A stretch of 64,000 nucleotides of DNA from a virus. The stretch covers positions 1 through 64,000 of the IMG/VR virus record IMGVR_UViG_3300005253_000193. One strand, 5' to 3'. Of the stretch, positions 2,142-64,000 are shown in pieces. The translations under genes and the position numbers were made by a program. The notes beneath the pieces were generated by a model, which worked only from the letters and a program-made list of their open reading frames with translations, had not been told where the DNA came from and ran no database searches. Each line of letters begins with the position of its first letter. Position 1 is the first letter of the stretch.

Positions 2142-2193
2142 TGTCTCCTCCTTTGCTAGTATGTACTAAAAGAATGAAGTCGCTTTCCAACTT

Positions 2194-2599
2194 TGGGTTT
2201 CTGAATGTCGTTGGCTCGCTAGTCTCTCTCGGTTTTCTTAGAGTGGATGGCGCACTCTCCGTTCTTGGATTTCTATCTACAGTTGGCTCACTTTGGATGT
2301 GTGGTTTCCTACAGAATGTTGGCTCGCTTCGTCACATTGGATTTCCACTCCGTATTGGCTCGCTTCCTAGGGATGGTTTCCAAAACCAGTGTGGCTCACT
2401 TCCTTAACATGGTGGACTAGCGTTCTGTGGCTCGCTTGTGGCCATTGGATTTCTAAGACCAGGCTGGCTCGCTATGTTTCATTGGTTTTCTGAAGGTTTC
2501 CGGCTCGCTGTAGGGAGGTGGTTTTCTAAAGAGCAGCGGCTCACTTAGGATTTGTGGTTTTCTGCGATGTATTGGCTCGCTCGTACTTTCTGGGTTGCT
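2194..2599. repeat. 18-nt-period box array 1 (23 boxes)
   Basis: Alternating 9-nt boxes TGGCTCGCT (A) and TGGATTTCT (B), each followed by a 9-nt variable spacer. There are 23 boxes in 406 nt, and the phase is kept except for one extra base near 2470. The minus-strand end is followed by GCGACTTCATTC and TTTTAGT, resembling the ends of arrays 2 and 4. No protein frame is kept across it. Confidence 0.85.
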
Positions 2600-2651
2600 T
2601 GGAGGAGGGGCTATGCCTTTAAAATCATCACCTCCTAGCTTGAGTAGAAAA

Positions 2652-2685
2652 AGGAATAAAAAGACCCCCCTGCTAGAGGGGGGTC
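2652..2685 (-). terminator. Intrinsic terminator
   Basis: Minus strand: GACCCCCC, loop TCTAGCAG area, GGGGGGTC, then TTTTTATT. Follows the histone-like gene and isolates it from array 1. Confidence 0.85.
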
Positions 2686-2705
2686 GAGTTTGGGGGGAGT
2701 TCGAA

Positions 2706-3221
2706 TCACTTCTTGGGAACGATCTTGTAGCGATAGACCTGACGCTTGCCCCCGCTGTTCGTGACCTTGGTCTTGCTGACCTCCCATTCGGACGAAAGCT
2801 GCTTGAACAAGTTCAGGTGAGGGCTGCCAAGCTCCTTGCGGACCTCTTCGGTGGTGGCTCCCTTCCCAGTGCCATACATCTTGGCGGCACGGGAGGTCTT
2901 GGAGCCATCAACAAAACCGAATCTGTCCATCTTTCGGGTGGACTTCGACGCCTTGGCCTTGGCCGGGGTTTTGTCCTTGGCCTTTGCCGGAGCCTTGGCC
3001 TTTGCCGGAGCCTTGGCCGAGCCGGCGTTCTTTTTACCCTTGGCGGGCTTTGCTGGCGTCTTGGCCTTCGAAGCCGCTGTCGGCTTGTTTTTTGCCCTTG
3101 CGGCGGCCTCGTCGTCCTTGCGGGCCTTGACCCTGGCTGCATCATCCTCGGGAGTCCGCTTGAAAGCGGCGGGGATGGGTTCATCAGCGGGTTTGTTGGT
3201 AGCATTTGTGGCTTCACTCAT
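2706..3221 (-). CDS. Histone-like basic protein with C-terminal HTH-like domain
   Basis: 171 residues. Residues about 25-100 are a low-complexity Ala/Lys/Pro tail (repeats of PAKAKAP type) like bacterial histone-H1-type proteins, so DNA or RNA binding is likely. Residues about 100-171 carry a compact domain (SRAAKMY, GATTEEVRKELGSPHLNLFKQL, then a beta tail ending YRYKIVPKK) shared with the proteins at 5214, 20179 and 23312. The pattern suggests a winged-HTH, by inspection only. AGGAGAGAAA precedes ATG 3221. Possibly a nucleoid-associated regulator. Confidence 0.72.
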   Translation of the reverse strand: MSEATNATNKPADEPIPAAFKRTPEDDAARVKARKDDEAAARAKNKPTAASKAKTPAKPAKGKKNAGSAKAPAKAKAPAKAKDKTPAKAKASKSTRKMDRFGFVDGSKTSRAAKMYGTGKGATTEEVRKELGSPHLNLFKQLSSEWEVSKTKVTNSGGKRQVYRYKIVPKK

Positions 3222-3327
3222 TTTCTCTCCTCCTAGTGTTGTGTGTCTCTAATGGCAACGAACTTAAATTGCCAAAGGTGGATGATGATTACTTATACCA
3301 TCACCCAAAATTTTCGCAAGTTAAATT

Positions 3328-3828
3328 TTATTCGGGTTTGTCCTTATTGATATTTAGAGGTTTTTTCCATTTTTCCTCTGGGGTTGAACCTCGCATGAGG
3401 CTCGCATTGATGAATGCGCCACACCAGATCACGCCATGAAACCCATTTCGAAGAATGGTCTGGCGTACGAAATCGGTCTGGAAGGGGACGCCAAAGTATT
3501 CCCGACCGGGATGGTCACCGAGGTCACTCCAGGTTGGGTCAACAACCAAACCTTCAGGAGTTGCACACCAAGCATGATTTGTAGGAATGATAGAGTTGGC
3601 ATATCCCTCAACATAGATCAGATCCGGTTCGGACAGCACCAAATCGAAAGCATTGGAATAGCATTCCTTGATGGTGCCTTTCTTTATGCCTTCGGGGAGG
3701 GGTTGGCACTCAAACTCATTTCCATGTCTGAGTAAGAAGTCGCAGTGGTTGTTGTATAACCAACCCTTGGGACGTTTTCCCTTCATTACCTCTTGAAGCA
3801 TCTTTATATGCTCTATTGTCTCGTTCAT
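3328..3828 (-). CDS. Putative transglutaminase/papain-like fold protein
   Basis: 166 residues. Three conserved-looking blocks, KECYSNAF (about residue 55), NHAWC (about 85) and VVDPTW (about 95), have the Cys-His-Asp order of transglutaminase-like and papain-like enzymes. This reading is from motif order only. Leader CAGGAGGAGACC-ATG. Substrate unknown; a phage protease or amidase would fit. Confidence 0.5.
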   Translation of the reverse strand: MNETIEHIKMLQEVMKGKRPKGWLYNNHCDFLLRHGNEFECQPLPEGIKKGTIKECYSNAFDLVLSEPDLIYVEGYANSIIPTNHAWCATPEGLVVDPTWSDLGDHPGREYFGVPFQTDFVRQTILRNGFHGVIWCGAFINASLMRGSTPEEKWKKPLNINKDKPE

Positions 3829-3862
3829 GGTCTCCTCCTGTTGCTATCCATAGATGGATAAA

Positions 3863-3910
3863 AGCCGAGGCTAAAAAATTGTGGACTTCTTTGATCCAAT
3901 GGCCCCGGCT
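3863..3910 (-). repeat. Single-copy intergenic hairpin (box type)
   Basis: Minus strand: AGCCGGGGC-CA, 9 nt, AGAAGTCCA, about 8 nt, GCCTCGGCT, then TTTTATCC. The stem differs from the other copies but pairs. Confidence 0.7.
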
Positions 3911-3920
3911 AATTGTGTTG

Positions 3921-5111
3921 TCACGAAATGTCGAGTAGGTCCCCAAAGGGGGGAAGGTGCTCCCTTTTTGAGGTAGAAGCCCACATCACCGGATACTCCG
4001 GCTCCTGTGGGAAGGAGTTGCAGTACATGTCCGTCATGTAGATGAAACACGCCGGAATGATACCGTTGTCCTCAACCCACTTGAACGGAGGTTTGAAGTC
4101 CGTACCACCCCCACCCTTGGCGTGAAGCCTGATGGGAAGGTCGGTCTTGTCGAACTCCTCAGTACCAGCCACCTTGGCATCGCAGTAGACGACGTAGACC
4201 TTTTCGATGTCAATGGTGGATAGGATTTCAGACAGCTCCGTGGCAAATCTGGTCAGCTCGACCTGGGAAATGCTCCCGGATGTGTCAACGGCAATCACGA
4301 TGCAGCCGATTTCCTGGCTGTGAAGGCTGGGGAGGTAGATTCCCCGACCGAGGTGTCGACGGTTTGGCTTTAGCCAGGAGTAGTCGTTCCTGGCTGAGTG
4401 CTCCACAAACTGACGTAGGCGGTCCACCCAATTGACCTTGGGATGGAGCAACTCACCAACAAACCTTTCCAGATCAGCCGGAAATTGTCCTTGGGACTTC
4501 GCGACAGCCGCCGCCTGTGCCACAAGTATCTTGACGTCGGCCATGGCTTTCGACTCGGCGGCAGAAACGGAGGGTGATCCCCCGTTGTTCCTTTTTCCTT
4601 TCTTGTTGTTGCCGTTTCTGCCAGCACCCCGCGATGGATGATCCTTCAGACCTCCACAACAAGTCTTTTGTTTGCTCTCCTTTATTTTCTTTTTCAACTT
4701 GTTGTAGATTTCATCTGCCGACATGCCCTTGAATTGCTCATCCAACAACACATCATCCGCAAGACTGAAGCCGGAACTTTCGAGGATCTGATTGATGGCG
4801 AAGTCCCCGGCTATGTTCCATAACAAGGGGTCACGGTTCTTGCGACGTACCGGATGGGCCATTGCAACGTGCATGACTTCATGGGCTACGCTGAACTCGA
4901 CTTCCTTGTCGCTTTCTGCAATGATGACATCGGGCTCGTATCCGAGCATTTCACCATTGGTCCAGTAAGCACCGCCCACTCTTTTCACGCAACCAACATC
5001 CTCAACCAATCTCATCCTCAAGGCGATAGTTCCGAAGAAGGCGTGGTTGAGGATCAACGAGGACCTGGCTCGAGTGAGCTTGTATCTGGCTTCCTGATTT
5101 ATTTCGTTCAT
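3921..5111 (-). CDS. VWA-domain metallopeptidase-like protein (DUF2201/CobT-like)
   Basis: 396 residues. The N-terminal third contains a zincin-like motif HEVMHVAMAH (about residue 78); the middle is Lys/Gly-rich and disordered; the C-terminal third is a von Willebrand A-like domain with a MIDAS start DTSGSISQVEL and the C-terminal ALIGN FIYMTDMYCN. This is the DUF2201-type architecture that partners MoxR/CobS-like AAA ATPases, and such an ATPase sits at 10097-11113. Together they probably form a metal-ion- or complex-remodelling chaperone; the target is unknown. Confidence 0.75.
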   Translation of the reverse strand: MNEINQEARYKLTRARSSLILNHAFFGTIALRMRLVEDVGCVKRVGGAYWTNGEMLGYEPDVIIAESDKEVEFSVAHEVMHVAMAHPVRRKNRDPLLWNIAGDFAINQILESSGFSLADDVLLDEQFKGMSADEIYNKLKKKIKESKQKTCCGGLKDHPSRGAGRNGNNKKGKRNNGGSPSVSAAESKAMADVKILVAQAAAVAKSQGQFPADLERFVGELLHPKVNWVDRLRQFVEHSARNDYSWLKPNRRHLGRGIYLPSLHSQEIGCIVIAVDTSGSISQVELTRFATELSEILSTIDIEKVYVVYCDAKVAGTEEFDKTDLPIRLHAKGGGGTDFKPPFKWVEDNGIIPACFIYMTDMYCNSFPQEPEYPVMWASTSKREHLPPFGDLLDIS

Positions 5112-5156
5112 TGTCTCCTCCTGTTGCTTTCGTGTGACAATTAAATTGCCAAATTT

Positions 5157-5203
5157 GGAAGGGGCTCATGCCGAATGGTTTGCTCCCTCCATCTGGCCCC
5201 TCC
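5157..5203 (-). repeat. Single-copy intergenic hairpin (box type)
   Basis: Minus strand: GGGAGGGGC-CA, 9 nt, GAGCAAACCA box variant, 8 nt, GCCCCTTCC. Lies between the 5214 gene and the leader of the VWA gene. Confidence 0.7.
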
Positions 5204-5213
5204 CATAATGAGT

Positions 5214-5696
5214 TCACGCTCGTGTGGGAATTAACCCAAGACGTAGATGGTTTGAATTTGTTGAAGGGCTAAGACGGAGTTTGAGCAGTTGTTGTTGCCC
5301 TTCCATCGTATAGTAGTTTGTTCCTTCCGGAATTAAATGGGCAGACATGGATGGTATGCGCCAGATGGTCATGAGGTCGTTGACCTCATGTTTTCTGAAG
5401 CCCATGTTTTTGAGCTCCGTGAGTGAGACATCATCCCAATCGATGGGTCTGAACGGATGGGCATTCGGATTTATTTGGATGTGGTGTTTCTTGACTGCAT
5501 TTGAACCGCCGCCACCCGACCACTTGTAGTAGACGAAGTGTCCCTGTGAGGCTACCTCCTTGAGGAGGTTTAGTTGGGTTCCGCAAAGCAGTCCGATCTT
5601 GATGTCTTTTTGAGTTGCGCCCCCATGTACATACATTGAAGCCGCACGGGACTTCAGGCTTCCTTCCTTGAAGCCAAAAAGGTCACGTGTCGTCAT
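5214..5696 (-). CDS. HTH-like paralogue of the 2706/20179/23312 proteins
   Basis: 160 residues. The first 75 carry the shared domain: SRAASMYVHGGATQKDI, GTQLNLLKEV, then a Gly-rich beta hairpin ending in KHHIQI. The remaining 85 residues are unique, with no Lys/Ala-rich tail. AGGAGGAGATC precedes ATG. The shared core suggests nucleic-acid binding; the extension may set specificity (inference). Confidence 0.65.
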   Translation of the reverse strand: MTTRDLFGFKEGSLKSRAASMYVHGGATQKDIKIGLLCGTQLNLLKEVASQGHFVYYKWSGGGGSNAVKKHHIQINPNAHPFRPIDWDDVSLTELKNMGFRKHEVNDLMTIWRIPSMSAHLIPEGTNYYTMEGQQQLLKLRLSPSTNSNHLRLGLIPTRA

Positions 5697-5733
5697 GATC
5701 TCCTCCTGTTGCTGTCCTATTAAATGGACAAAT

Positions 5734-5780
5734 GGAAGGGGCTTGCGTCTTTTGGGTTTCTGATATTCGCTGGCCCCTTC
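5734..5780 (-). repeat. Single-copy intergenic hairpin (box type)
   Basis: Minus strand: GAAGGGGC-CA, 9 nt, AGAAACCCA, 8 nt, GCCCCTTCC, then ATTTGTCC. A canonical copy. Confidence 0.75.
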
Positions 5781-5790
5781 TTAATTGAGT

Positions 5791-6654
5791 CTACTTCATG
5801 AAACCGGACATCGTTTTGAGGATGGCGTCCGCGTCCTTGGCTGTCTTGGCCCTCACGTGGCCGTCGGTCCGAAGGGCATCGGCCTCCGTTCCACACAGCT
5901 TGAGCTTGATCTCCGTGGTCAGCTTGTTCATCCGGGGATCACCCGAGATGTTCAAGTGAGGCAGGAGGTCTGTCAGTTCCCGCATGTTGCCCACGAGGGA
6001 ATCCCGAAAGATGTTGTCCTCGTCGCTGAGCCGCTCGTGCATCTTGGTGACCATCCTGTGGACACGCTCCCACAGGTCGGTCATGGCACGTTCCTGGACG
6101 CCCATGATCTGCTCGTTGAGCGACTTCTTGAGCGCGGCGATGTGTTTCTTGTCGATGTCGACGCGCCAATCCCCGGCGTCGGGAAGTGGGGAGTAATTGA
6201 TTTCGAAGCCAAACTTGCGGCGGACGGCTTCCGCCTTCGGGTAATCCATGTCGTTGTGCATGGTGCCGAGGTCTCCCACAGCGTCCTTCCGGGCTCGCTT
6301 GTAGTCGATCCGGATGAACTCGTCGGCGAATTCCTCGCAGGTCACCCTGAACTCCTTCATGTCGTGATTGTAGTCCATGAAGATGCCAACCGGCAGGATC
6401 CGGACGCCGCCGTCATTCCACGGCAGAGTACGGTCGTAGTGATAGTTCCTGGCGGCGTCGGAAGTCCTGCGGAACATGTCCAATGAAGGACTCTTCAGCA
6501 GGACCTTGTAGTATTTCCCGACATTGCCCCTGGCATTGTGGCTTTCCGCCACCTCGCCGGAGACCTTGCGGTCGTACTTCCTGGCCGTCCACTGACTGAT
6601 ATTCAAGTAGACAAGCATGGCCTTCGTTGTGAGACCCTTTATCTTTGTGGTCAA
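5791..6654 (-). CDS. Hypothetical protein linked to MoxR/VWA module (DUF3150-like)
   Basis: 287 residues, mostly helical with a conserved-looking WTARKYDRKV N-terminus. Phage MoxR (CobS-like) and VWA (CobT-like) genes are often accompanied by a DUF3150 protein of this size and character; the assignment is by context and general appearance, not a domain search. The start is TTG, six bases after AGGAGGAG. The codons are GC-rich relative to neighbours, giving long antisense frames that are not genes. Confidence 0.6.
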   Translation of the reverse strand: MTTKIKGLTTKAMLVYLNISQWTARKYDRKVSGEVAESHNARGNVGKYYKVLLKSPSLDMFRRTSDAARNYHYDRTLPWNDGGVRILPVGIFMDYNHDMKEFRVTCEEFADEFIRIDYKRARKDAVGDLGTMHNDMDYPKAEAVRRKFGFEINYSPLPDAGDWRVDIDKKHIAALKKSLNEQIMGVQERAMTDLWERVHRMVTKMHERLSDEDNIFRDSLVGNMRELTDLLPHLNISGDPRMNKLTTEIKLKLCGTEADALRTDGHVRAKTAKDADAILKTMSGFMK

Positions 6655-6695
6655 TTTCTCCTCCTATGTTTGCTGTGGTTTTCTAGCTACCACTA

Positions 6696-6712
6696 CTGAG
6701 CAGAATGCTCAG
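6696..6712 (-). repeat. Perfect short hairpin
   Basis: CTGAGCA-GAA-TGCTCAG, a 7-bp perfect inverted repeat between the 6737 gene stop and the 5791-6654 gene start. Could be an attenuator or an mRNA-stabilising stem. It occupies the position where other gaps carry the box-type hairpin. Confidence 0.5.
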
Positions 6713-6736
6713 TTTCGTCCTTGCTAAAGGGACTCA

Positions 6737-6946
6737 TCAGGTGGGTAAACCACCATTACAGATGCATTCATCAACATATTCGTTGCAGTGAAAACATCTG
6801 TGGTGAATTTCGTCATCAAAATCACCGTAGCCCGCAAAGATGTCGTCGCTTCCGTGAGCAGCCCGATGATCTTCGACAAGACGTTTTGCCGTTTCTGGTT
6901 GGTGAGGGCCAATAACTTCATCGTTGACCTTTATCGTGATCTTCAT
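6737..6946 (-). CDS. Small protein with Cys/His cluster
   Basis: 69 residues from MKITIKVNDE. C-terminal CFHC...CIC with nearby His (HHRCFHCNEYVDECIC) suggests a small zinc-binding knuckle. GAGGGAGA lies 8 nt upstream of ATG 6946, and the upstream gene's TGA falls just before it, so the pair is coupled. Function unknown. Confidence 0.6.
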   Translation of the reverse strand: MKITIKVNDEVIGPHQPETAKRLVEDHRAAHGSDDIFAGYGDFDDEIHHRCFHCNEYVDECICNGGLPT

Positions 6947-6948
6947 AG

Positions 6949-7494
6949 TCATTCTCCCTCGTAACGGAAACCTTGCATTTCCTCCAGGAGGGCATCGAGG
7001 AACTCCTGGCGTTTTTCTTCGATGGCTGCCTCAAACTCAGCCTTGCTTGGCTTGTGTTCATCGTCATCGAAGTCGCTGTTGACCTCTTCCTTGGCGGCGT
7101 CCTCGTCGAACTCGAAGTCGAGGTTTTCGAAATTGTCGGCCCACTCATCACAGGAGCACTGACGACCTTCGAGCATTTCGCCGGTAGGGGCATCCTGTAG
7201 TTGTTCAGGCATATTGGCTCGCTTGTCGGCCTGTTCCTCTCCGAGTGCCCTGATCCGCTCGGCGAAGTCGTCTGTGAAGTCGTTGAGTGCGGAGTCAGCC
7301 TTCAAGTCTCCGATCTCATCCTCAAGATCGTACACCTGACCCAGAAAATCACTCTGCGTCAGTTGGCTTCGCCTGGGATGGGTCTTGGAGAAACGCTTTG
7401 GCCCAAAGGCAAACTTCCACCAGTAATAGGGCTCTCCCCTCTTGACGACGGGATTGTCCTTCCTGGCCTTTTTGACATGATGTACTCTTGGCAT
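6949..7494 (-). CDS. Hypothetical acidic coiled-coil protein
   Basis: 181 residues from MPRVHHVKKARKD, with TTGGAGGAGAAGCCG ahead of the ATG. A basic N-terminus (YYWWKFAFGPKRFSKT) is followed by long charged helices, and a CSCDEW motif near the middle. The very acidic C-terminal third is helical. A longer frame to 7635 exists but would overwrite the small gene at 7544-7699. No family recognised. Confidence 0.62.
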   Translation of the reverse strand: MPRVHHVKKARKDNPVVKRGEPYYWWKFAFGPKRFSKTHPRRSQLTQSDFLGQVYDLEDEIGDLKADSALNDFTDDFAERIRALGEEQADKRANMPEQLQDAPTGEMLEGRQCSCDEWADNFENLDFEFDEDAAKEEVNSDFDDDEHKPSKAEFEAAIEEKRQEFLDALLEEMQGFRYEGE

Positions 7495-7543
7495 CGGCTT
7501 CTCCTCCAATTGCGATGCGTTGACGCATCTGGAAGTCCACCCG

Positions 7544-7699
7544 TTAGGATGGACTTCTGGCTGCGTCCTCCTTTCCTTTATTGCTTGGACAGTCGTCTGA
7601 CGGACATTTGTCGCCTGGGTAAAGACCCTCGTCACCTTCCCACCAACGCCCGCAGTCTCGACAGCGGACGCCCTCAGGAAGCCTTGCTACCAATGTCAC
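7544..7699 (-). CDS. 51-residue zinc-ribbon-like protein
   Basis: Starts at GTG with AGGAGGAGAAAT just before it; the in-phase ATG two bases earlier is followed at once by a stop. Four Cys, CRDC and later C-x4-C, with a GRWW turn, give a small zinc-ribbon pattern. First gene downstream of array 2. Function unknown. Confidence 0.6.
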   Translation of the reverse strand: MTLVARLPEGVRCRDCGRWWEGDEGLYPGDKCPSDDCPSNKGKEDAARSPS

Positions 7700-7760
7700 A
7701 TTTCTCCTCCTGCGTGTGGCAATGTGAAATCACCAAAAGAATAAAGACGCTCTGCTTTCT

Positions 7761-8038
7761 TGGGTTTCTTATCTGGAAGGGCTCGCTTTCTCTTTCATGG
7801 GTTTCTATACCGTATCGGCTCGCTAACTCGCATTGGATTTCTTCGAATTCTTGGCTCGCTTTACCACTGTGGTTTTCTACTGACGAGTGGCTCACTAGAC
7901 GCTCCGGGATTTCTTTATTATAATGGCTCGCTCACGTTTTTTGGATTTCTGCCAACTTTTGGCTCGCTTAATCGAGATGGGCTTCTAAAAATCGGGGGCT
8001 CGCTTCCATTTCGTGGTTTCCTATATCCTTTTGGCCCC
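7761..8038. repeat. 18-nt-period box array 2 (16 boxes)
   Basis: Alternating TGGGTTTCT- and GGCTCGCT-type boxes with 9-nt spacers (one spacer of 10). The right end is TGGCCCCTCC, identical in kind to the 5' stem half of the single hairpins, and the left flank on the minus strand is GCGTCTTTATTC-TTTTGGT. The frame change at the 10-nt spacer breaks any continuous coding. Confidence 0.85.
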
Positions 8039-8054
8039 TCCTGTACGTCAAATT

Positions 8055-8086
8055 AACAAAAGGCCGAGGCCATAACAGCCTCGACC
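8055..8086 (-). terminator. Terminator-like hairpin between arrays 2 and 3
   Basis: Minus strand: GGTCGAGGC, 6-nt loop, GGCCTCGGCC, then TTTTGTTAATTT. If it terminates, array 2 would be separated from the IS110-like gene's transcript. Confidence 0.6.
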
Positions 8087-8103
8087 AATTCGCTTTCCCT
8101 TTT

Positions 8104-8238
8104 TGGTTTTCTTTACTGCGTTGGCACGCTCCCTCTTTCCGGGTTTCTGGTTTGGAATGGCACGCTCCAAGTTTTTGGGTTCCTATGTCCGAAGGGCTCG
8201 CTCCCTCTTTTTGGATTGCTCGCCCCGAATGGCTAACC
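8104..8238. repeat. 18-nt-period box array 3 (8 boxes)
   Basis: TGGTTTTCT, TGGCACGCT, CGGGTTTCT and so on, eight boxes with constant 9-nt spacers. It runs into the stop codon of the 8233-9204 gene. Confidence 0.8.
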
Positions 8239-9204
8239 CTCGTGGACGATCCCGAGTTTGCCCTCGCTGTAAGGGGTCGATACCGGAAGTCCTTCCAGCT
8301 CACGCCAGGCCATATGGAGATCCATCAGGAACATCTTGATCATGTACCTTTTGGAGGCATTGTTGATGCGTCCGGGCGTCCATACCAAGGCGGCTTCCGT
8401 CTTGGAGATCTTGGAGAGTTTCTTGTACTCCTCGACCGTCACCTTCACCCTGTTGGGATCCGTTTCCAGCCGACGCTTGTAGGTTTCGTAGATACGACGG
8501 TAGCCGGTCACCTCGCCGATGACCTCCTTGGTCTCCTTGTCCTTCGGCGCTACCCCCGACTTAAGGAAGGAGCCGGCCAACACGCCGACCATTTTGGTCT
8601 TCAGGAAAGGATTGAACGTGATGCTATCACGCTCGCTTTCCTTTCCCTTCTTGTCGACGTAGGTACGCTTGACCTGATGCTCCTTGCGCCTGGAGCGTCC
8701 GACACCATCCGGTCCGACGTCCAGCCCAGCATACTTCCAAAAGCTGGAAGGATACTTGGCCTTGTGGATGTCAAACTCGGAGATGATGACACCGGCCATG
8801 GCCGCGCCGACTCCCTTCACGTCCTCCAGGAATTGGGTCCAGATGGGAAAGTCGAGCAGAACCGTCTCGAGTTGACGGAACATTTGTTCCTCGGCCTGCC
8901 TTAGTTCAATGTACCTGGAAACGAGACAGAGCTCCGCGTATGTGGAGATGACCTCGTCTCCCTTGAACTTTTTGGGCGTCGGGAAGGACACCATCCCATC
9001 GGTGATGAGCTTGTAGCGCTCGCGGAGCAGGTCCAGGGTTCTCTTGGCTTCCTTTTCCAGCTCCTTTTCGGAGGTGCTGGGTTCTTGTCCCAGCTTGGCG
9101 CGATAGTTCATCGCGATCCTGTTTCCGATCTGGATGCGGAGTTGTTGGATGTCATAGACACCCCGCACCATGGTCCGGAGATTCCGTTTGTGGTCTTCGC
9201 TCAT
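8233..9204 (-). CDS. IS110-like (Transposase_20-type) protein without catalytic domain
   Basis: 323 residues. Residues about 125-220 resemble the C-terminal helix-hairpin-helix domain of IS110/IS116 transposases (VKGVGAAMAGVIISEF, SSFWKYAGLDVG). The N-terminal DEDD/RuvC-like catalytic domain expected in IS110 (about 150 residues with early Asp) is replaced by an unrelated helical region. So this is probably a domesticated DNA- or RNA-binding protein rather than a transposase. It lies directly between box arrays 3 and 4, a striking neighbour given that IS110 enzymes work with flanking structured RNAs. Leader AGGAGGAGACC-ATG. Confidence 0.6.
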   Translation of the reverse strand: MSEDHKRNLRTMVRGVYDIQQLRIQIGNRIAMNYRAKLGQEPSTSEKELEKEAKRTLDLLRERYKLITDGMVSFPTPKKFKGDEVISTYAELCLVSRYIELRQAEEQMFRQLETVLLDFPIWTQFLEDVKGVGAAMAGVIISEFDIHKAKYPSSFWKYAGLDVGPDGVGRSRRKEHQVKRTYVDKKGKESERDSITFNPFLKTKMVGVLAGSFLKSGVAPKDKETKEVIGEVTGYRRIYETYKRRLETDPNRVKVTVEEYKKLSKISKTEAALVWTPGRINNASKRYMIKMFLMDLHMAWRELEGLPVSTPYSEGKLGIVHEG

Positions 9205-9272
9205 GGTCTCCTCCTGTTGCAGCTTGTGATGGTAACACTATATTACCAAAAGAATAAGGCGCTCGATCTGGA

Positions 9273-10019
9273 TGGGTTTCTATAGCGTAATGGCTCGCTC
9301 ATTCGACATGGACTTCTATCACGCATTGGCTCGCTCATGAGTATTGGGTTTCTGTAGCGTAATGGCACACTTCCCTGTAATGGGTTCCTGGCTAGGTTTG
9401 GTTCGCTTTTACCGTGTGGATTTCTCGCCATGATCGGCTCGCTCTGAAAAGTTGGATTTCTGCCAGATGATGGCTCGTTTGATCACGTTGGATTTCTCGA
9501 GGTTTCTGACTCGCTCCTGCGTCTTGGATTACTCGGTCTCGAAGGCTCGCTTTGCTCCAAAGGTTTTCTACGAGATGTTGACTTGCTCTCACGGGTTGGG
9601 CTTCTGCGCCGGATTGACTCGCTTGCTCGCCTTGGATTACTTGGTTCCAATGGCTCGCTCACATTAAATGGATTTCTAGCTGACTTTGGCTCGCTCGACG
9701 TGTATGGATTTCTGAAGGCTACTGGCCCACTTCCTTGCATCGGATTCCTGGTTGGAGTCGGTTCGCTTTTGTCGCGTGGTATACTATTTTGTGATGGCTC
9801 GTTTCCTCCGTATGGATTTCTTGGCTCGGTTGACACGCTTCCTTGTTTTGGATTTCTTTTGGCGAATGGCTCGCTTTTAGGTTTTGGATTTCTACCAGCC
9901 GGTGGCACGCTTACTTCTATTGGATTTCTAGTATCCAAGGACTCGCTTACGATCTTTGGGTTTCTGCTAGGTTTTGGCTCGCTTGAATCGTATGGGCTAC
10001 TGGATTCCCACGGCTCCTC
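9273..10019. repeat. 18-nt-period box array 4 (42 boxes)
   Basis: Forty-two 9-nt boxes alternate between TGGCTCGCT- and TGGATTTCT-like sequences, with 9-nt non-repeating spacers. There is not one indel across 747 nt (first box 9273, last 10011, exactly 41 periods). The minus-strand end is GCGCCTTATTC-TTTTGGT. Because 18 is a multiple of three, RNP/SEP-type and GFL/GSL-type pseudo-peptides appear in two frames; stops interrupt them. Confidence 0.9.
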
Positions 10020-10038: not shown

Positions 10039-10087
10039 TGTCGGGGCTTAGATGGAAGTGGATTGCTGGTATCCTCTGGCCCCGACA
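10039..10087 (-). repeat. Single-copy intergenic hairpin (box type)
   Basis: Minus strand: TGTCGGGGC-CA, 9 nt, AGCAATCCA, 9 nt, GCCCCGACA. The stem sequence differs from the GGAAGGGGC type but is fully paired, so it is a compensatory variant. Confidence 0.75.
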
Positions 10088-10096
10088 AATGAAGTT

Positions 10097-11113
10097 TTAG
10101 GCAAGGATGTCCGGGTGTTCGGAAATCCATTTGATGAAGGGGGTTGTTTCCTTCAGATCGCGATTGCGTTGTGTCGCCAGCTTGAGGGCAACCACGGCAT
10201 ATTCCTGCTCGGGGTACTGGTCACAGAACGTTATGAAGTTGTCCATGTTTTTCTCGGTTGCCCGCTCCGCCACGGCGGCGGCGAGAGCGTAGGACAGTGC
10301 CGGGTCATCCACAGGCATGTCGAAGTCACGCGGGTTCTTGATGACCAGGTCCGGATCGGGGAGGTTCCTGTAGATCTTGAGGAACCCTATCAACTCGCTG
10401 GCAAAACCCTCACCGGCCGCACCCTTGAAGACCTCGAACTCGATTTCGGGGTCAACAATGCCTGCCCTCATGAACTTGGCTATGTAGTGGACGGTGCGGG
10501 GCGAAGGCGTGTTTGTGATGTCCGAGGTCGGTTGGAAGTCATGGAGCAAGTTGGGTCGGAAGTTGATAAAACCGATCAACTCCGCAGGGATGTCATTTTG
10601 GCTGGCCCAAACGCACCAATCCTCATAATCACACTCGAGCTCGATGATGGTAGCAAACCTGGACTTGACAGGTTCCAGGATGCCAGCCACTCCGGCCCGA
10701 TCCGCCTTGCGATTTGTGGCCGCGATGAACGAGACCTTGTCCGAGATCTTTTTCTCATTGATCCGACGGGCGAGGATGAGCTGCATACATGCAGCCTGAA
10801 CGGCCGGTGGTGCCTGCCCGAGGTCATCCAAGAAATACACGGTACGCTTCTTAGCATCCATGATTCTCTTGAGATTTCCGAAGGGCAAGAATCTTGCCTC
10901 CGGACCTTTAGTGGTCTCGACCGCAGTCGGAAGACCTTTGTAGTCGACCGGGTCGTCCGTTACGGGATGTGAAACCACGGTGTCCGTCTTGCAGAACGCG
11001 CAAGCCTGATGCGTGATGTCAGTCTTTCCGAGTCCCGGTGCGCTCTTGATGAGGATCGGGAGTCCGGTGGGGATTGCATCACACAACAGCCTGAATAATT
11101 GACTGGGCTTCAT
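10097..11113 (-). CDS. MoxR/CobS-like AAA+ ATPase
   Basis: 338 residues. Walker A APGLGKT (about residue 27), Walker B VYFLDD (about 93), sensor-1-like FIAATNRK (about 130), then a helical lid. This is the MoxR/CobS-like branch that works with VWA-domain partners; the VWA protein at 3921-5111 is the obvious one. ATG 11113 follows GGAGGAGAAA and is preferred to 11125. Probably an ATP-driven remodelling chaperone in phage assembly or takeover (inference). Confidence 0.8.
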   Translation of the reverse strand: MKPSQLFRLLCDAIPTGLPILIKSAPGLGKTDITHQACAFCKTDTVVSHPVTDDPVDYKGLPTAVETTKGPEARFLPFGNLKRIMDAKKRTVYFLDDLGQAPPAVQAACMQLILARRINEKKISDKVSFIAATNRKADRAGVAGILEPVKSRFATIIELECDYEDWCVWASQNDIPAELIGFINFRPNLLHDFQPTSDITNTPSPRTVHYIAKFMRAGIVDPEIEFEVFKGAAGEGFASELIGFLKIYRNLPDPDLVIKNPRDFDMPVDDPALSYALAAAVAERATEKNMDNFITFCDQYPEQEYAVVALKLATQRNRDLKETTPFIKWISEHPDILA

Positions 11114-11159
11114 TTTCTCCTCCATTGCTTGGTATAGTGGTAGAGTGAAACTACCAAAG

Positions 11160-11786: not shown

Positions 11787-11823
11787 TTTCTCCTCCTGTT
11801 GCTGTCCTGTTAAATGGACAAAA

Positions 11824-11870
11824 GGAAGGGGCTTATTACTGATGGTTTACTGATTCGCCATGGCCCTTCC
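11824..11870 (-). repeat. Single-copy intergenic hairpin (box type)
   Basis: Minus strand: GGAAGGGCC-A, 9 nt, AGTAAACCA, 8 nt, GCCCCTTCC. One stem position is a mismatch relative to the other copies. Confidence 0.7.
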
Positions 11871-12480: not shown

Positions 12481-12527
12481 GGAAGGACTTCAGATCATTG
12501 GGCTTCTATGTCCACTTGGTCCTTCCA
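12481..12527 (-). repeat. Single-copy intergenic hairpin (box type)
   Basis: Minus strand: GGAAGGACC-A, 9 nt, AGAAGCCCA, 8 nt, AGTCCTTCC. C-to-A/G-to-T changes on opposite arms keep the stem. Confidence 0.75.
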
Positions 12528-12749: not shown

Positions 12750-12796
12750 GGAAGGGGCTAACAGGTTTTGGGCTGCTGACGGTCTATGGCCCCTCC
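12750..12796 (-). repeat. Single-copy intergenic hairpin (box type)
   Basis: Minus strand: GGGAGGGGC-CA, 9 nt, AGCAGCCCA, 8 nt, GCCCCTTCC. Confidence 0.7.
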
Positions 12797-13039: not shown

Positions 13040-13087
13040 GGGAGGGACTAGTTGCCTATGGTTTTCTCGGGCCTATTGGTCCCTCCC
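13040..13087 (-). repeat. Single-copy intergenic hairpin (box type)
   Basis: Minus strand: GGGAGGGAC-CA, 9 nt, AGAAAACCA, 9 nt, GTCCCTCCC. Another compensatory stem variant. Confidence 0.75.
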
Positions 13088-13860: not shown

Positions 13861-13905
13861 GAGGGGGCTTTTGTCGATTGGGTTTCTAACCACGTATGGC
13901 CCCCT
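13861..13905 (-). repeat. Single-copy intergenic hairpin (box type)
   Basis: Minus strand: AGGGGGC-CA, 9 nt, AGAAACCCA, 8 nt, GCCCCCTC. Confidence 0.7.
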
Positions 13906-14193: not shown

Positions 14194-14239
14194 GGAGGGG
14201 CTTGGCAACTTGGGATTTCTACCGGTCTATGGCCCCTCC
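14194..14239 (-). repeat. Single-copy intergenic hairpin (box type)
   Basis: Minus strand: GGAGGGGC-CA, 9 nt, AGAAATCCC, 8 nt, GCCCCTCC. The B box is AGAAATCC, as in the arrays. Confidence 0.75.
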
Positions 14240-36439: not shown

Positions 36440-37222
36440 ATGCAAAAGAGAACAAGAAAGCCTCCGAGGCAAAAGAGAACGAGAAAGCCTCCGATGCAAA
36501 AGAGAACAAGAAAGCCTCCGATCAAAAAATTGGCTTTGGTTGGTTCCGCTTCAAATACCAAGGACCTTGTTCCTTGGGAGGATGATTCGGTCGAGATTTG
36601 GGGGCTTGCCTGGAGAAAGGATCTTATCAGGGTTAATCGCCTTTTTGAGATGCATCCCTTTGCAAAGCATCGTTACAAGATTCCCAAAAACTATGTTGGG
36701 TATCTCGCGAGTCTCAGAACGCCAGTTTACCTTCTCCAAGAACACCACCGGATTCCCAATGGGGTTGTTTATCCCATTGATGTAGTTATCCAACGCCTTG
36801 GCCCCATGTTGGATAAAAACTCCGATGGGGATTATTTCGCATCCTCCATTGCTTATCTGTTGGCTCTGGCCATTGTGGAGGAATATGATGAGATCCAACT
36901 GTACGGGATCGACTTCATTGATACCGATGAGTACGGACATCAGCGTCCAAACATGGAATATCTCATTGGGGTTGCTCGCGGCTTGGGGATCAGCGTTTAC
37001 ATTCCACGGAAGGCAGCTCTTTGCTACTTCCCATATCGTTATGGGTATGAGCTTCCTGATTTTGGCCTCATCGATTCTGGCATTCTCAAGGAGAGAGAGA
37101 AGCAATATAATGAACAATGGGAAAAGGCCAGATGCGAGTTCTACACGGCTGATGGTGCTCGTCAGGAAGTGCGGCAGCTTCTGAAGATCACCGAACAAGC
37201 AAAGAAAGGACGCAGAGAATGA
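36440..37222 (+). CDS. GT42/Maf-like putative sialyltransferase
   Basis: 260 residues. Starts with three basic QKRTRKPP repeats (27-nt DNA repeats). LALVGSASNTKDL with VEIWGLAW resembles the GxGxSL nucleotide loop region of GT42 sialyltransferases and Maf/DUF115 glycosyltransferases; SSIAYLLALAIVEEYDEI-QLYGIDF closely echoes the SGxxxxxxAxxxGYxEIYLxGIDF motif of Campylobacter Cst-II. EYGHQRPNMEYLIG follows. Next to NeuB/NeuA genes this suggests transfer of a nonulosonic acid, perhaps to capsid or tail. Similar proteins are common in phages without known function, so the role stays inferred. Confidence 0.6.
   Translation: MQKRTRKPPRQKRTRKPPMQKRTRKPPIKKLALVGSASNTKDLVPWEDDSVEIWGLAWRKDLIRVNRLFEMHPFAKHRYKIPKNYVGYLASLRTPVYLLQEHHRIPNGVVYPIDVVIQRLGPMLDKNSDGDYFASSIAYLLALAIVEEYDEIQLYGIDFIDTDEYGHQRPNMEYLIGVARGLGISVYIPRKAALCYFPYRYGYELPDFGLIDSGILKEREKQYNEQWEKARCEFYTADGARQEVRQLLKITEQAKKGRRE
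36443..36523 (+). repeat. 27-nt tandem repeat x3 (coding)
   Basis: CAAAAGAGAACAAGAAAGCC with the following TCCG plus one codon, three times, encoding QKRTRKPP-x. Confidence 0.85.
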
Positions 37223-61445: not shown

Positions 61446-64000
61446 TCAGTAATCTTCCAGGATTTCTATTGACGAGCCTTCCACGGTTTTAGTGACACGT
61501 ATCACTTGCTGGAATCCTCCATAATCCAGGCTGTGATGCTCAACAACCCAAACTTGTCGCTTCAGTTCCTCGGCCCGTGATTGGAGAAGCTCAAGTAAGT
61601 CTTCTACCCCCTCCGGGTTGAGATGTTGAGTTGGTTCATCAAAGACCTCAATGTTGGACTTGATTCCACTCTTTCCTAGAATGAGATTTGCAAGGCCCAT
61701 GGTTCCCGCCAACCTCAATCTTTGTGACTCGCCGCCCGACCAGGCTTCCCAAGGAACGAGGTCTTCATTGTAGGGGGACTTGATAAAGACCGTGAAGCCC
61801 TTTGTTATGGAACCAGATTTTGTTTCCCGTTCTACATCAAACGCAATCTCCCAATTGTGAAGCCCAAGCTGCATCAGACTGTTGCTGACCTCGACTTCCA
61901 ATTGGTTGAGAGCCTCTTCAATCATGAATAACCTGACTTCCTTGAAGCCCTTTATCCAATACTTGTTACACTCATGTTTGGTCAGGAGATCGTCCAAATG
62001 AAGTACGAGCAGTTCGAGTTCCTTTTCAAAACCAATGAGCTGTTCTTCTGCAGTCGCTATTAAATCCTTGTGGGGGTTTTTTTCTTCCAAGACCTGGTCT
62101 AGATCCTCCTGCGCATCATCCACTTTTTCGGAGAGGTTGTTTAATTCATTTTCATATGTCCTTTTTTCAAGGATGAGTTCTCTTATTTTGTTATCGACCT
62201 TCATCCTGTCATTTTGAAGGTCCTTCTTTTCCTCCTTGAGTTCCTTCAGTTGTTTTTGGATGTGTTCCAAATCCTCGTTTTCATCAGATAGTTTATCCTT
62301 TAATTTATTACCTTCACTTTCAATCCTTTTCTTTTCGTCACGTAAATGCTTGGCGGAGACCTTCTGCCCACAATGGGGACAAGTGTTGCCGACTCCATCC
62401 AGTTTTTTCCATTCCTTTCTGCTTGCATCGATTTTGGTCTCTAGCCGGGTGATTTTTTGTTCCACAAAACCCCTGCTTGTGTTTTCTTCATCAAGATTGT
62501 CCTGCACTTCTTTCACTGCGAGATCAAACTCGGCCAGATCATCCTCAACTGTTTTCATTTCCTTGTTATGGGAGCATCCTTTCCCTTTCTTTTCCTCGAG
62601 CTTGTTCTTGTGGTCCTTTAGAACGTTCTTCAATACTTTGACACGTTCCCTCTCAGTTTTTAAATACCCTTCATTGCTATCATAATAATTTTCCAGATTG
62701 GTCTCGGTGAGGGTTATGTTTCCCTCCAAGGTTGCTATATCAGATTCGCAGGAACTTATCTTGCCAGCGATCTCGGTTGTCCACTGGGTTGCTTCCTGAC
62801 TTTTGTCCAACCAAAAGTCAAGTTCAAACATGTCGGAAAACAAGGACAGTTTTTGAGCCGGTTTAAGATCAAAGAACATGGGGGAGAATTGTCCGGTAAT
62901 GATAGAGTGTTGAAAGGATTCTGAATTGAGGCCAATCAAATCTTCCACAACTTGTTGGTCCACGGTCTCACCGTCAAGCTCCAGATTATTTGGGTTCCAT
63001 GTACGGATCAGTACGTGCTCCTCCCCTGACCTCTCAAAGAAGAGATGACCTGCACATCGTCCTTTAACACCCCAGGTGCAAACGTCCCCTGCCTTGAGAT
63101 TGCGAAGGGTCTTTCCGTAGATGATCCAAAACAATCCATCCCAAATGGTACTTTTGCCGCTATTATGAACAACGATTCCATTTGCCACAAAATTATGACA
63201 ATCTTCAACTTCCATATCGTATACATCTTCATACCCATAAAACTCGACGCTGATAACTTTATGGTTTGTCTTTCTTATGACTACTCCAAAATCAGACAAT
63301 CTATTGTAGACGGTCTGTGTGCTGCATTCACAAATTTTGGCTATTTCTTTTCCGGTTGCACCGGATTTGTAAATATTTTCAAGCCATGCTTTATTATTTA
63401 TTTTTTTCCCCGATTTATTTCTTTTTGCGATCCCAGCATTTTTAATAGCAAGAACCCTTCTTTGCCTATCTTCTTTCCATTGATATTTTATTGTGCTACT
63501 GATTTTAGCTTTTGTGGTAGAGCTGTGTTTCTTTCCCTTCATCCCTTTTGGATGTATGTTCCACATGAAATTTTCTTTTTCATGATTCTTATAAGCATGA
63601 AGGCTTTGATGCTCCACAGAGGATAAACCCTCCAAATTTTCTATTGAATTGTCCCATTTTTTATGATTTTTGTGGTGATGAACATCGTATTGACCACAAA
63701 CCAGTTCACCAATGAATTTATGTTCATATTTTGATTTACACTTAGAATCGTTCAGAACTAAATGGACATATCCATCATATGTTTTTCTATACAAAGATCG
63801 TAAGCTATCACCTCTCTTTAATTCCCCCAATTTACAGTATGATCCGTCGGTCTTTAGAATTGGATGGTCATAAGTTCCTATAATGTAATCATATGAATGA
63901 AAATGCTTATAATCTTTGCCCTCATATGACAGTTTGTAAACTGGCTTTCTTATTCCTGTCTTGCGAACGTCCTTTGCCCTTTTCAAAGTAAAACAATTAT
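61446..64000 (-). CDS. SbcC/gp46-type recombination ATPase with intein (5' end outside window)
   Basis: The leftward gene enters at the right edge. Codons at 63998-63996 give Asn, then the intein (278 residues), then SGKSTIWDGLFW, the Walker A of SMC/Rad50-type proteins. The rest is the classic layout: first arm, coiled coil, zinc hook CPHC (about residue 537 from TTG 63986), second coiled coil, ABC signature SGGESQRLRLA, Walker B IEVFDEPTQHLNP and a C-terminal VVEHH. Works with an SbcD/gp47 nuclease, not in the window. Reverse-strand neighbour of the lipase. Confidence 0.85.
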   Translation of the reverse strand, partial: NCFTLKRAKDVRKTGIRKPVYKLSYEGKDYKHFHSYDYIIGTYDHPILKTDGSYCKLGELKRGDSLRSLYRKTYDGYVHLVLNDSKCKSKYEHKFIGELVCGQYDVHHHKNHKKWDNSIENLEGLSSVEHQSLHAYKNHEKENFMWNIHPKGMKGKKHSSTTKAKISSTIKYQWKEDRQRRVLAIKNAGIAKRNKSGKKINNKAWLENIYKSGATGKEIAKICECSTQTVYNRLSDFGVVIRKTNHKVISVEFYGYEDVYDMEVEDCHNFVANGIVVHNSGKSTIWDGLFWIIYGKTLRNLKAGDVCTWGVKGRCAGHLFFERSGEEHVLIRTWNPNNLELDGETVDQQVVEDLIGLNSESFQHSIITGQFSPMFFDLKPAQKLSLFSDMFELDFWLDKSQEATQWTTEIAGKISSCESDIATLEGNITLTETNLENYYDSNEGYLKTERERVKVLKNVLKDHKNKLEEKKGKGCSHNKEMKTVEDDLAEFDLAVKEVQDNLDEENTSRGFVEQKITRLETKIDASRKEWKKLDGVGNTCPHCGQKVSAKHLRDEKKRIESEGNKLKDKLSDENEDLEHIQKQLKELKEEKKDLQNDRMKVDNKIRELILEKRTYENELNNLSEKVDDAQEDLDQVLEEKNPHKDLIATAEEQLIGFEKELELLVLHLDDLLTKHECNKYWIKGFKEVRLFMIEEALNQLEVEVSNSLMQLGLHNWEIAFDVERETKSGSITKGFTVFIKSPYNEDLVPWEAWSGGESQRLRLAGTMGLANLILGKSGIKSNIEVFDEPTQHLNPEGVEDLLELLQSRAEELKRQVWVVEHHSLDYGGFQQVIRVTKTVEGSSIEILEDY
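63162..63995 (-). other. Intein with HNH homing endonuclease
   Basis: Cys1 (63995) begins CFTLKRAKDV; Hint block B is GTYDHPIL, block F/G is GYEDVYDMEVEDCHNFVANG and the C-terminal splice site is VVHN/S. An HNH-type stretch (YDVHHHKNHKKWDNSIENLE) followed by NUMOD-like (GKKHSSTTKAKIS) and IENR/HTH-like (KEIAKICECSTQTVYNRL) modules lies in the middle. The extein junction is in the P-loop, N/S-GKST, a common intein insertion point. Confidence 0.85.

Follow-up and report, generated by a model that had tools for sequence, protein, structure and literature searches.

The closest described relatives of the locus considered here are the TIGR-Tas systems, reported in Science in 2025 (Faure et al., PMC12045711). 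The main text of that founding paper describes alternating 8–12-nt repeats, separated by 9-nt spacers, that lie beside a gene for a Nop-domain protein. The tigRNAs of relatives are there shown to be processed to 36 nt and to pair through their tandem spacers with opposite DNA strands; stem-loop arrays, a further format, are assigned in the same text to other Tas clades.

Here we describe a locus in an uncultivated phage, within a stretch of 64,000 nucleotides (positions 1 to 64,000 of IMG/VR record IMGVR_UViG_3300005253_000193) that we refer to as the window. To judge from sequence and predicted structure, the locus is a TIGR-Tas system of the nuclease-less TasA type, and its four arrays would be banks of guide RNAs. 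Its components are as follows.

2181..2608, minus strand: TIGR array 1, located 5.6 kb downstream of tas; about 12 units, truncated edge AGCG at its end
7748..8040, minus strand: TIGR array 2, about 8 units; truncated edge AGCG at its end
8062..8086, minus strand: terminator-like hairpin, 11 pairs, then TTTTGTT; right behind array 3
8091..8238, minus strand: TIGR array 3, directly downstream of tas; truncated edge AGCG at its end
8233..9204, minus strand: tas gene, TasA type, 323 aa, with a Nop domain and without a nuclease domain (NF052498, PDB profile, AlphaFold/Foldseek)
9255..10019, minus strand: TIGR array 4, composed of about 21 units (edge, spacer A, loop, spacer B) and lying upstream of tas

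The tas gene and its arrays

The gene that lies between arrays 3 and 4 had escaped the original prediction. Its product first resembled a fragment of an IS110 transposase – matching phrog_4285 transposase and, as its only Pfam domain, Transposase_20 – and it was this likeness that pointed to TIGR-Tas systems. The identification rests firstly on the NCBIfam model NF052498.1 (TIGR_Tas_endo), against which the protein scores 114.2 bits and so passes the cut-off of 100; the same curated model is matched by 59 of 59 aligned sequences. Secondly, a profile built from homologues matches TasH (3.9e-86) and TasR (4.8e-50) in the PDB. Finally, the AlphaFold model (pLDDT 92.5) finds its best Foldseek matches in TasR (9mty) and TasH (9vzx/9w04), followed by IS110, with Nop5 weaker. 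Pfam detects no RuvC or HNH domain at the N terminus, which is all-helical in the AlphaFold model, and a Tas protein without a nuclease domain is of the TasA type. The whole 106-kb record contains this one Tas gene only.

The arrays consist of two 9-nt boxes in essentially perfect alternation, with 9-nt spacers that do not repeat. The window contains 24 copies of the pattern TGGNTNNCT-N9-TGGNTNNCT, each on the + strand and within an array, against an expectation of 0.00 from 100 shuffles. Array 4 has 42 full boxes over 9273-10019 with zero indels, and at 9255 one truncated edge; in array 1 there are 23 boxes over 2194-2599 plus a weak outer box, in array 2 there are 16 over 7761-8040, and each of these two contains a single 10-nt spacer (near 2463 and near 7797, respectively). 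The boxes of array 3 extend from 8104 to 8238. The original prediction had described four such arrays, the fourth of 42 boxes without an indel and the others with at most one, and this description holds; so does its judgement that the arrays are not iterons and that their spacing is under selection.

The prediction had presented the arrays on the + strand, which is the antisense: their functional strand is the minus strand. There the edge repeat reads AGCGAGCCA and the A-rich loop repeat AGAAANCCA, and the two share their ends, starting with AG (box D) and finishing with CCA (box C). A truncated edge AGCG stands at the 3′ end of all four arrays, while the opening truncated edge of array 3 (TTAGCCA) overlaps the tas stop codon. 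Only array 3, among the four, is followed by a clear terminator-like hairpin. No Rfam family reached its gathering score, and PADLOC gave no model.

Considerably more than 100 contigs, viral and metagenomic, contain the boxes. A scan for them – the original prediction had suggested looking for the unit in related DNA – returned at least 118 viral stretches, and 22 from genome bins of bacteria and archaea. When the 225 strict runs of 118 loci, with 3279 boxes between them, are pooled, conservation at box positions is 79–100%, except at the variable fourth position of the B box, whereas spacer positions past the first carry 0.00–0.05 bits; neighbouring boxes alternate 2990 times and fail to do so 64 times. 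Boxes in related loci show no drift. On the + strand each box is followed by a pyrimidine base in 76–84% of cases, which is a purine just ahead of the box on the sense strand and makes the effective motif 10 nt. The same base, viewed from the pooled arrays as the last of the spacer, is a purine in 76–84% of units, so that a guide may in effect consist of 8 nt and a purine. The pooled edge repeats have T in place of the first C of CCA in 17% of cases, a change almost never seen in loop repeats, fitting a G-U pair that is tolerated in the edge only.

Association with tas is close. A Tas homologue is present in 117 of 176 loci (this phage counted), and all 240 arrays of loci with tas lie on the tas strand, at a median distance of 50 bp. 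Arrays without tas were seen in 57 loci, in 37 of which the array lies less than 1.5 kb from the end of the sequenced stretch. A protein-led search, whose loci are in part redundant as are those of the first count, found arrays with these boxes in 75 of 80 tas loci, with 128 of 130 arrays on the tas strand. The Tas protein has no match among named phage genomes, so that this branch is known mainly from metagenomes; neither those genomes nor single-protein searches with Tas and the neighbouring ATPase yielded a close relative of this phage.

Set against the TIGR-TasA dual-repeat type as given in the main text of the founding paper (PMC12045711), the locus shares the nuclease-less Nop protein, the two alternating short repeats, the 9-nt spacers, arrays on both sides of tas, truncated edges, carriage by a phage and, behind one array, a terminator-like hairpin. 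It departs from the typical case in having four arrays, one of them 5.6 kb off and another with about 21 units against the typical 5–15, in an AG box D, and in the solitary stem-closed units described below. With CRISPR arrays it has in common unique spacers that would serve as guides between repeats, and their fast turnover; CRISPR repeats are, however, 25–36 nt long and of one kind, with spacers of similar length, whereas here there are 9-nt repeats of two alternating kinds, split guides and a Nop-domain effector. The original prediction was right to set the arrays apart from classical CRISPR.

Several other features of the window were recorded. Two minus-strand genes flank tas, one for a DUF2201 metallopeptidase/VWA-like protein (3921-5111) and one for an AAA ATPase (phrog_1297, 10097-11125); relatives of both adjoin the TIGR locus of another contig, L124. 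At 2706-3221, also minus, lies a small lysine-alanine-rich protein with KAPAKAKAPAKAK repeats and a resemblance to histone H1-like proteins; this protein accounts for an 18-nt tandem repeat at 2975-3018. A 27-bp tandem repeat of 3.3 copies (36440-36527) stands at the start of a 260-aa ORF, and a large minus-strand ORF (61446-63986) has matches in its first third to intein splicing and, weakly, to HNH.

Solitary stem-closed units

About ten solitary guide-like units lie in early-gene gaps between 3871 and 14232, all on the minus strand, which is that of tas. Their form is stem, CCA, 9 nt, loop repeat, 9 nt, AG, stem.

3871..3902, minus strand: solitary tigRNA-like unit, stem 9 bp
5165..5196, minus strand: solitary tigRNA-like unit, stem 10 bp
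5742..5773, minus strand: solitary tigRNA-like unit, stem 8 bp
10047..10079, minus strand: solitary tigRNA-like unit, stem 9 bp; spacer B 10 nt long
11832..11863, minus strand: solitary tigRNA-like unit, stem imperfect; folds least well of the set (z −0.67)
12488..12519, minus strand: solitary tigRNA-like unit, stem 9 bp
12758..12789, minus strand: solitary tigRNA-like unit, stem 10 bp
13048..13079, minus strand: solitary tigRNA-like unit, stem 10 bp
13868..13899, minus strand: solitary tigRNA-like unit, stem 7 bp
14201..14232, minus strand: solitary tigRNA-like unit, stem-closed, from a relaxed-box search; variant loop repeat AGAAATCCC

A strict search returned eight solitary units, against none in 19 of 20 local shuffles and three in the other; the units at 11832 (imperfect stem) and 14201 (variant loop repeat) came from searches other than the strict one. 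The stems vary in sequence and keep their pairing: nine units contain 9 double-sided changes against 2.9 when shuffled, and none of 500 shuffles reached 9. Eight of nine units fold better than their shuffles (z −2.4 to −5.1), the exception being that at 11832. The first C of CCA pairs with the G of AG, in line with the box C/D pairing described in the main text of PMC12045711. Most early-gene gaps on the minus strand between 3871 and 14232 contain one TIGR array or one stem-closed single unit.

Related loci, most of which reach no further than 10 kb to either side of the match, contained no solitary unit clear of arrays (sets of 176 and 80). The strict search gave seven matches in the first set outside the window, in dense-array loci and mostly inside or adjoining arrays, and in the protein-led set of 80 loci it gave only array members with variant edges. 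The literal pattern GGGGCCA...AGCCCC, representing a single stem sequence, was absent from viral contigs.

The combination of arrays with scattered solitary units seems unusual. Like the stem-loop arrays of TIGR systems, as these appear in the main text of the founding paper (PMC12045711), the solitary units have two spacers, C and D boxes and a palindromic closing stem; unlike them, they are spread singly over the intergenic gaps, retain a loop repeat that follows the dual-repeat consensus, and lie beside dual-repeat arrays in a record with one Tas gene. That text puts the array and stem-loop formats into separate clades and holds no description of solitary units beside dual-repeat arrays. 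We lean slightly towards the view that a single TasA serves both the dual-repeat arrays and some ten dispersed stem-closed guides freed from early mRNA, thereby linking the two formats.

Separately from the TIGR units, many early genes have a small palindrome just ahead of their AGGAGG ribosome-binding site, as at 5112-5150, 5697-5730, 9205-9250 and 11787-11820 (for example TTTGTCC-ATTTAATA-GGACAG).

Proposed mechanism, target searches and turnover of the guides

The reading that we hold to be very probable is that of a TIGR-TasA system on the early operon of a tailed phage, whose minus-strand arrays would give rise to 36-nt tigRNAs with which a Tas dimer binds DNA without cutting it. The arrays would be transcribed with the early operon. 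A cut within each edge repeat would, by analogy with relatives in which such processing is known, release a 36-nt tigRNA made of edge half, spacer A, loop repeat, spacer B and edge half. The Tas dimer would grip this RNA at the ends of its edge and loop repeats, CCA being box C and AG box D, and the DNA target would comprise 18 bp, one strand pairing with spacer A and the other with spacer B. Lacking RuvC or HNH, TasA should bind and bend DNA without cutting, and would most likely block transcription or replication of competing mobile elements. Action against other mobile elements is a guess, and one that is made also in the main text of the founding paper (PMC12045711). Two observations count against the TIGR-TasA reading: guide targets were not found above shuffled controls, and box D reads AG, where TasR arrays have UG. 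Boxes vary between loci, according to the main text of PMC12045711, provided that edge and loop covary.

The target orientation used in our searches, spacer A and then spacer B in reverse complement, was derived in this analysis from the 8-nt 3′ overhangs reported in the paper's cutting rule. With up to 4 of 18 positions mismatched and gaps of 0–2 allowed, the window's guides (the solitary unit at 14201 omitted) had no more self-targets than expected from shuffled pairings. When 2028 unique guides were compared with 1.6 Mb of TIGR loci, the 0 exact and 22 one-mismatch matches fell within the shuffled-pairing controls. For g14, which recurs in nine loci and is shared more widely than any other guide, the predicted target has three matches in viral contigs, all at the start of one ORF in near-identical contigs; they amount to one event and are compatible with chance. 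Sequence searches of the phage genome, of TIGR loci and, for g14, of viral contigs identified no natural guide target.

These results bear on the possibility that TIGR-TasA regulates the phage's own genes rather than acting on other elements. A Tas without a nuclease domain would suit such a role, as would units that occupy the gaps of the early operon; self-targets no more frequent than in the shuffled control speak against it, and we regard it as unlikely.

Among related phages tas is mostly 92–96% identical, yet the arrays have only a minority of guides in common, in roughly conserved order, which indicates fast guide turnover. Where guides are shared – defined as at least 14 of 18 positions alike, a threshold that qualifies the figure – their spacers are 89–98% identical, similar to tas. 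Replacement of whole guides is, on these alignments, much faster than base change. We know of no adaptation genes in TIGR systems. Loci with tas at 92–96% and some guides identical, others wholly different, include L159, L168, L051, L114, L119, L171, L016, L097 and L175; the guide GAAGGACAT / TCCTTACRA recurs in nine loci. A transition bias among similar spacers of array 4 was refuted (52 transitions against 106 transversions), and we make no claim for a swap of single spacer halves between related arrays, of which there are a few clear cases, many others being drift.

That the arrays are a sponge, or a protein-binding array in RNA or DNA whose boxes titrate or park a protein while the spacers merely set the spacing, is very unlikely. 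Nearly invariant boxes, spacers almost free of information and a strict phase would all be expected of it; the family of the adjoining protein, however, uses such arrays as guides, and common spacers are about as well conserved as tas, the latter being a weak argument, as the comparison was confined to guides with 14 or more of 18 positions alike. The sponge offered in the original prediction is unneeded to explain the data. Another of its proposals, tandem protein- or RNA-binding units, came closer, in that the boxes would form RNA units bound by a protein, although the strand and the guide role of the spacers were missed.

It is scarcely credible that the arrays are the guide bank of an IS110-like RNA-guided transposase. 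The tas product matches Transposase_20 and phrog_4285 transposase and shares a Nop-like RNA-binding domain with IS110, but the protein reaches 24.1 bits against an IS110 cut-off of 140, whereas it passes the Tas model; moreover, the N-terminal DEDD transposase domain of IS110 is not visible in the AlphaFold model, and IS110 has a single bridge RNA in place of arrays. A coding repeat (GFLxxxGSLxxx on the + strand, RNPxxxSEPxxx on the minus strand) is rejected, as it was in the original prediction, because its frames are broken by stop codons, such as the TAG within the opening unit of array 4, and array 4 is not covered by any single open frame.

The discoverers of TIGR systems name their role, origin and natural targets as questions. 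To these systems the present locus adds a large TasA representative with about 50 guides; it suggests a second guide format alongside the arrays and, together with its relatives, gives figures for the rate at which guides are replaced.
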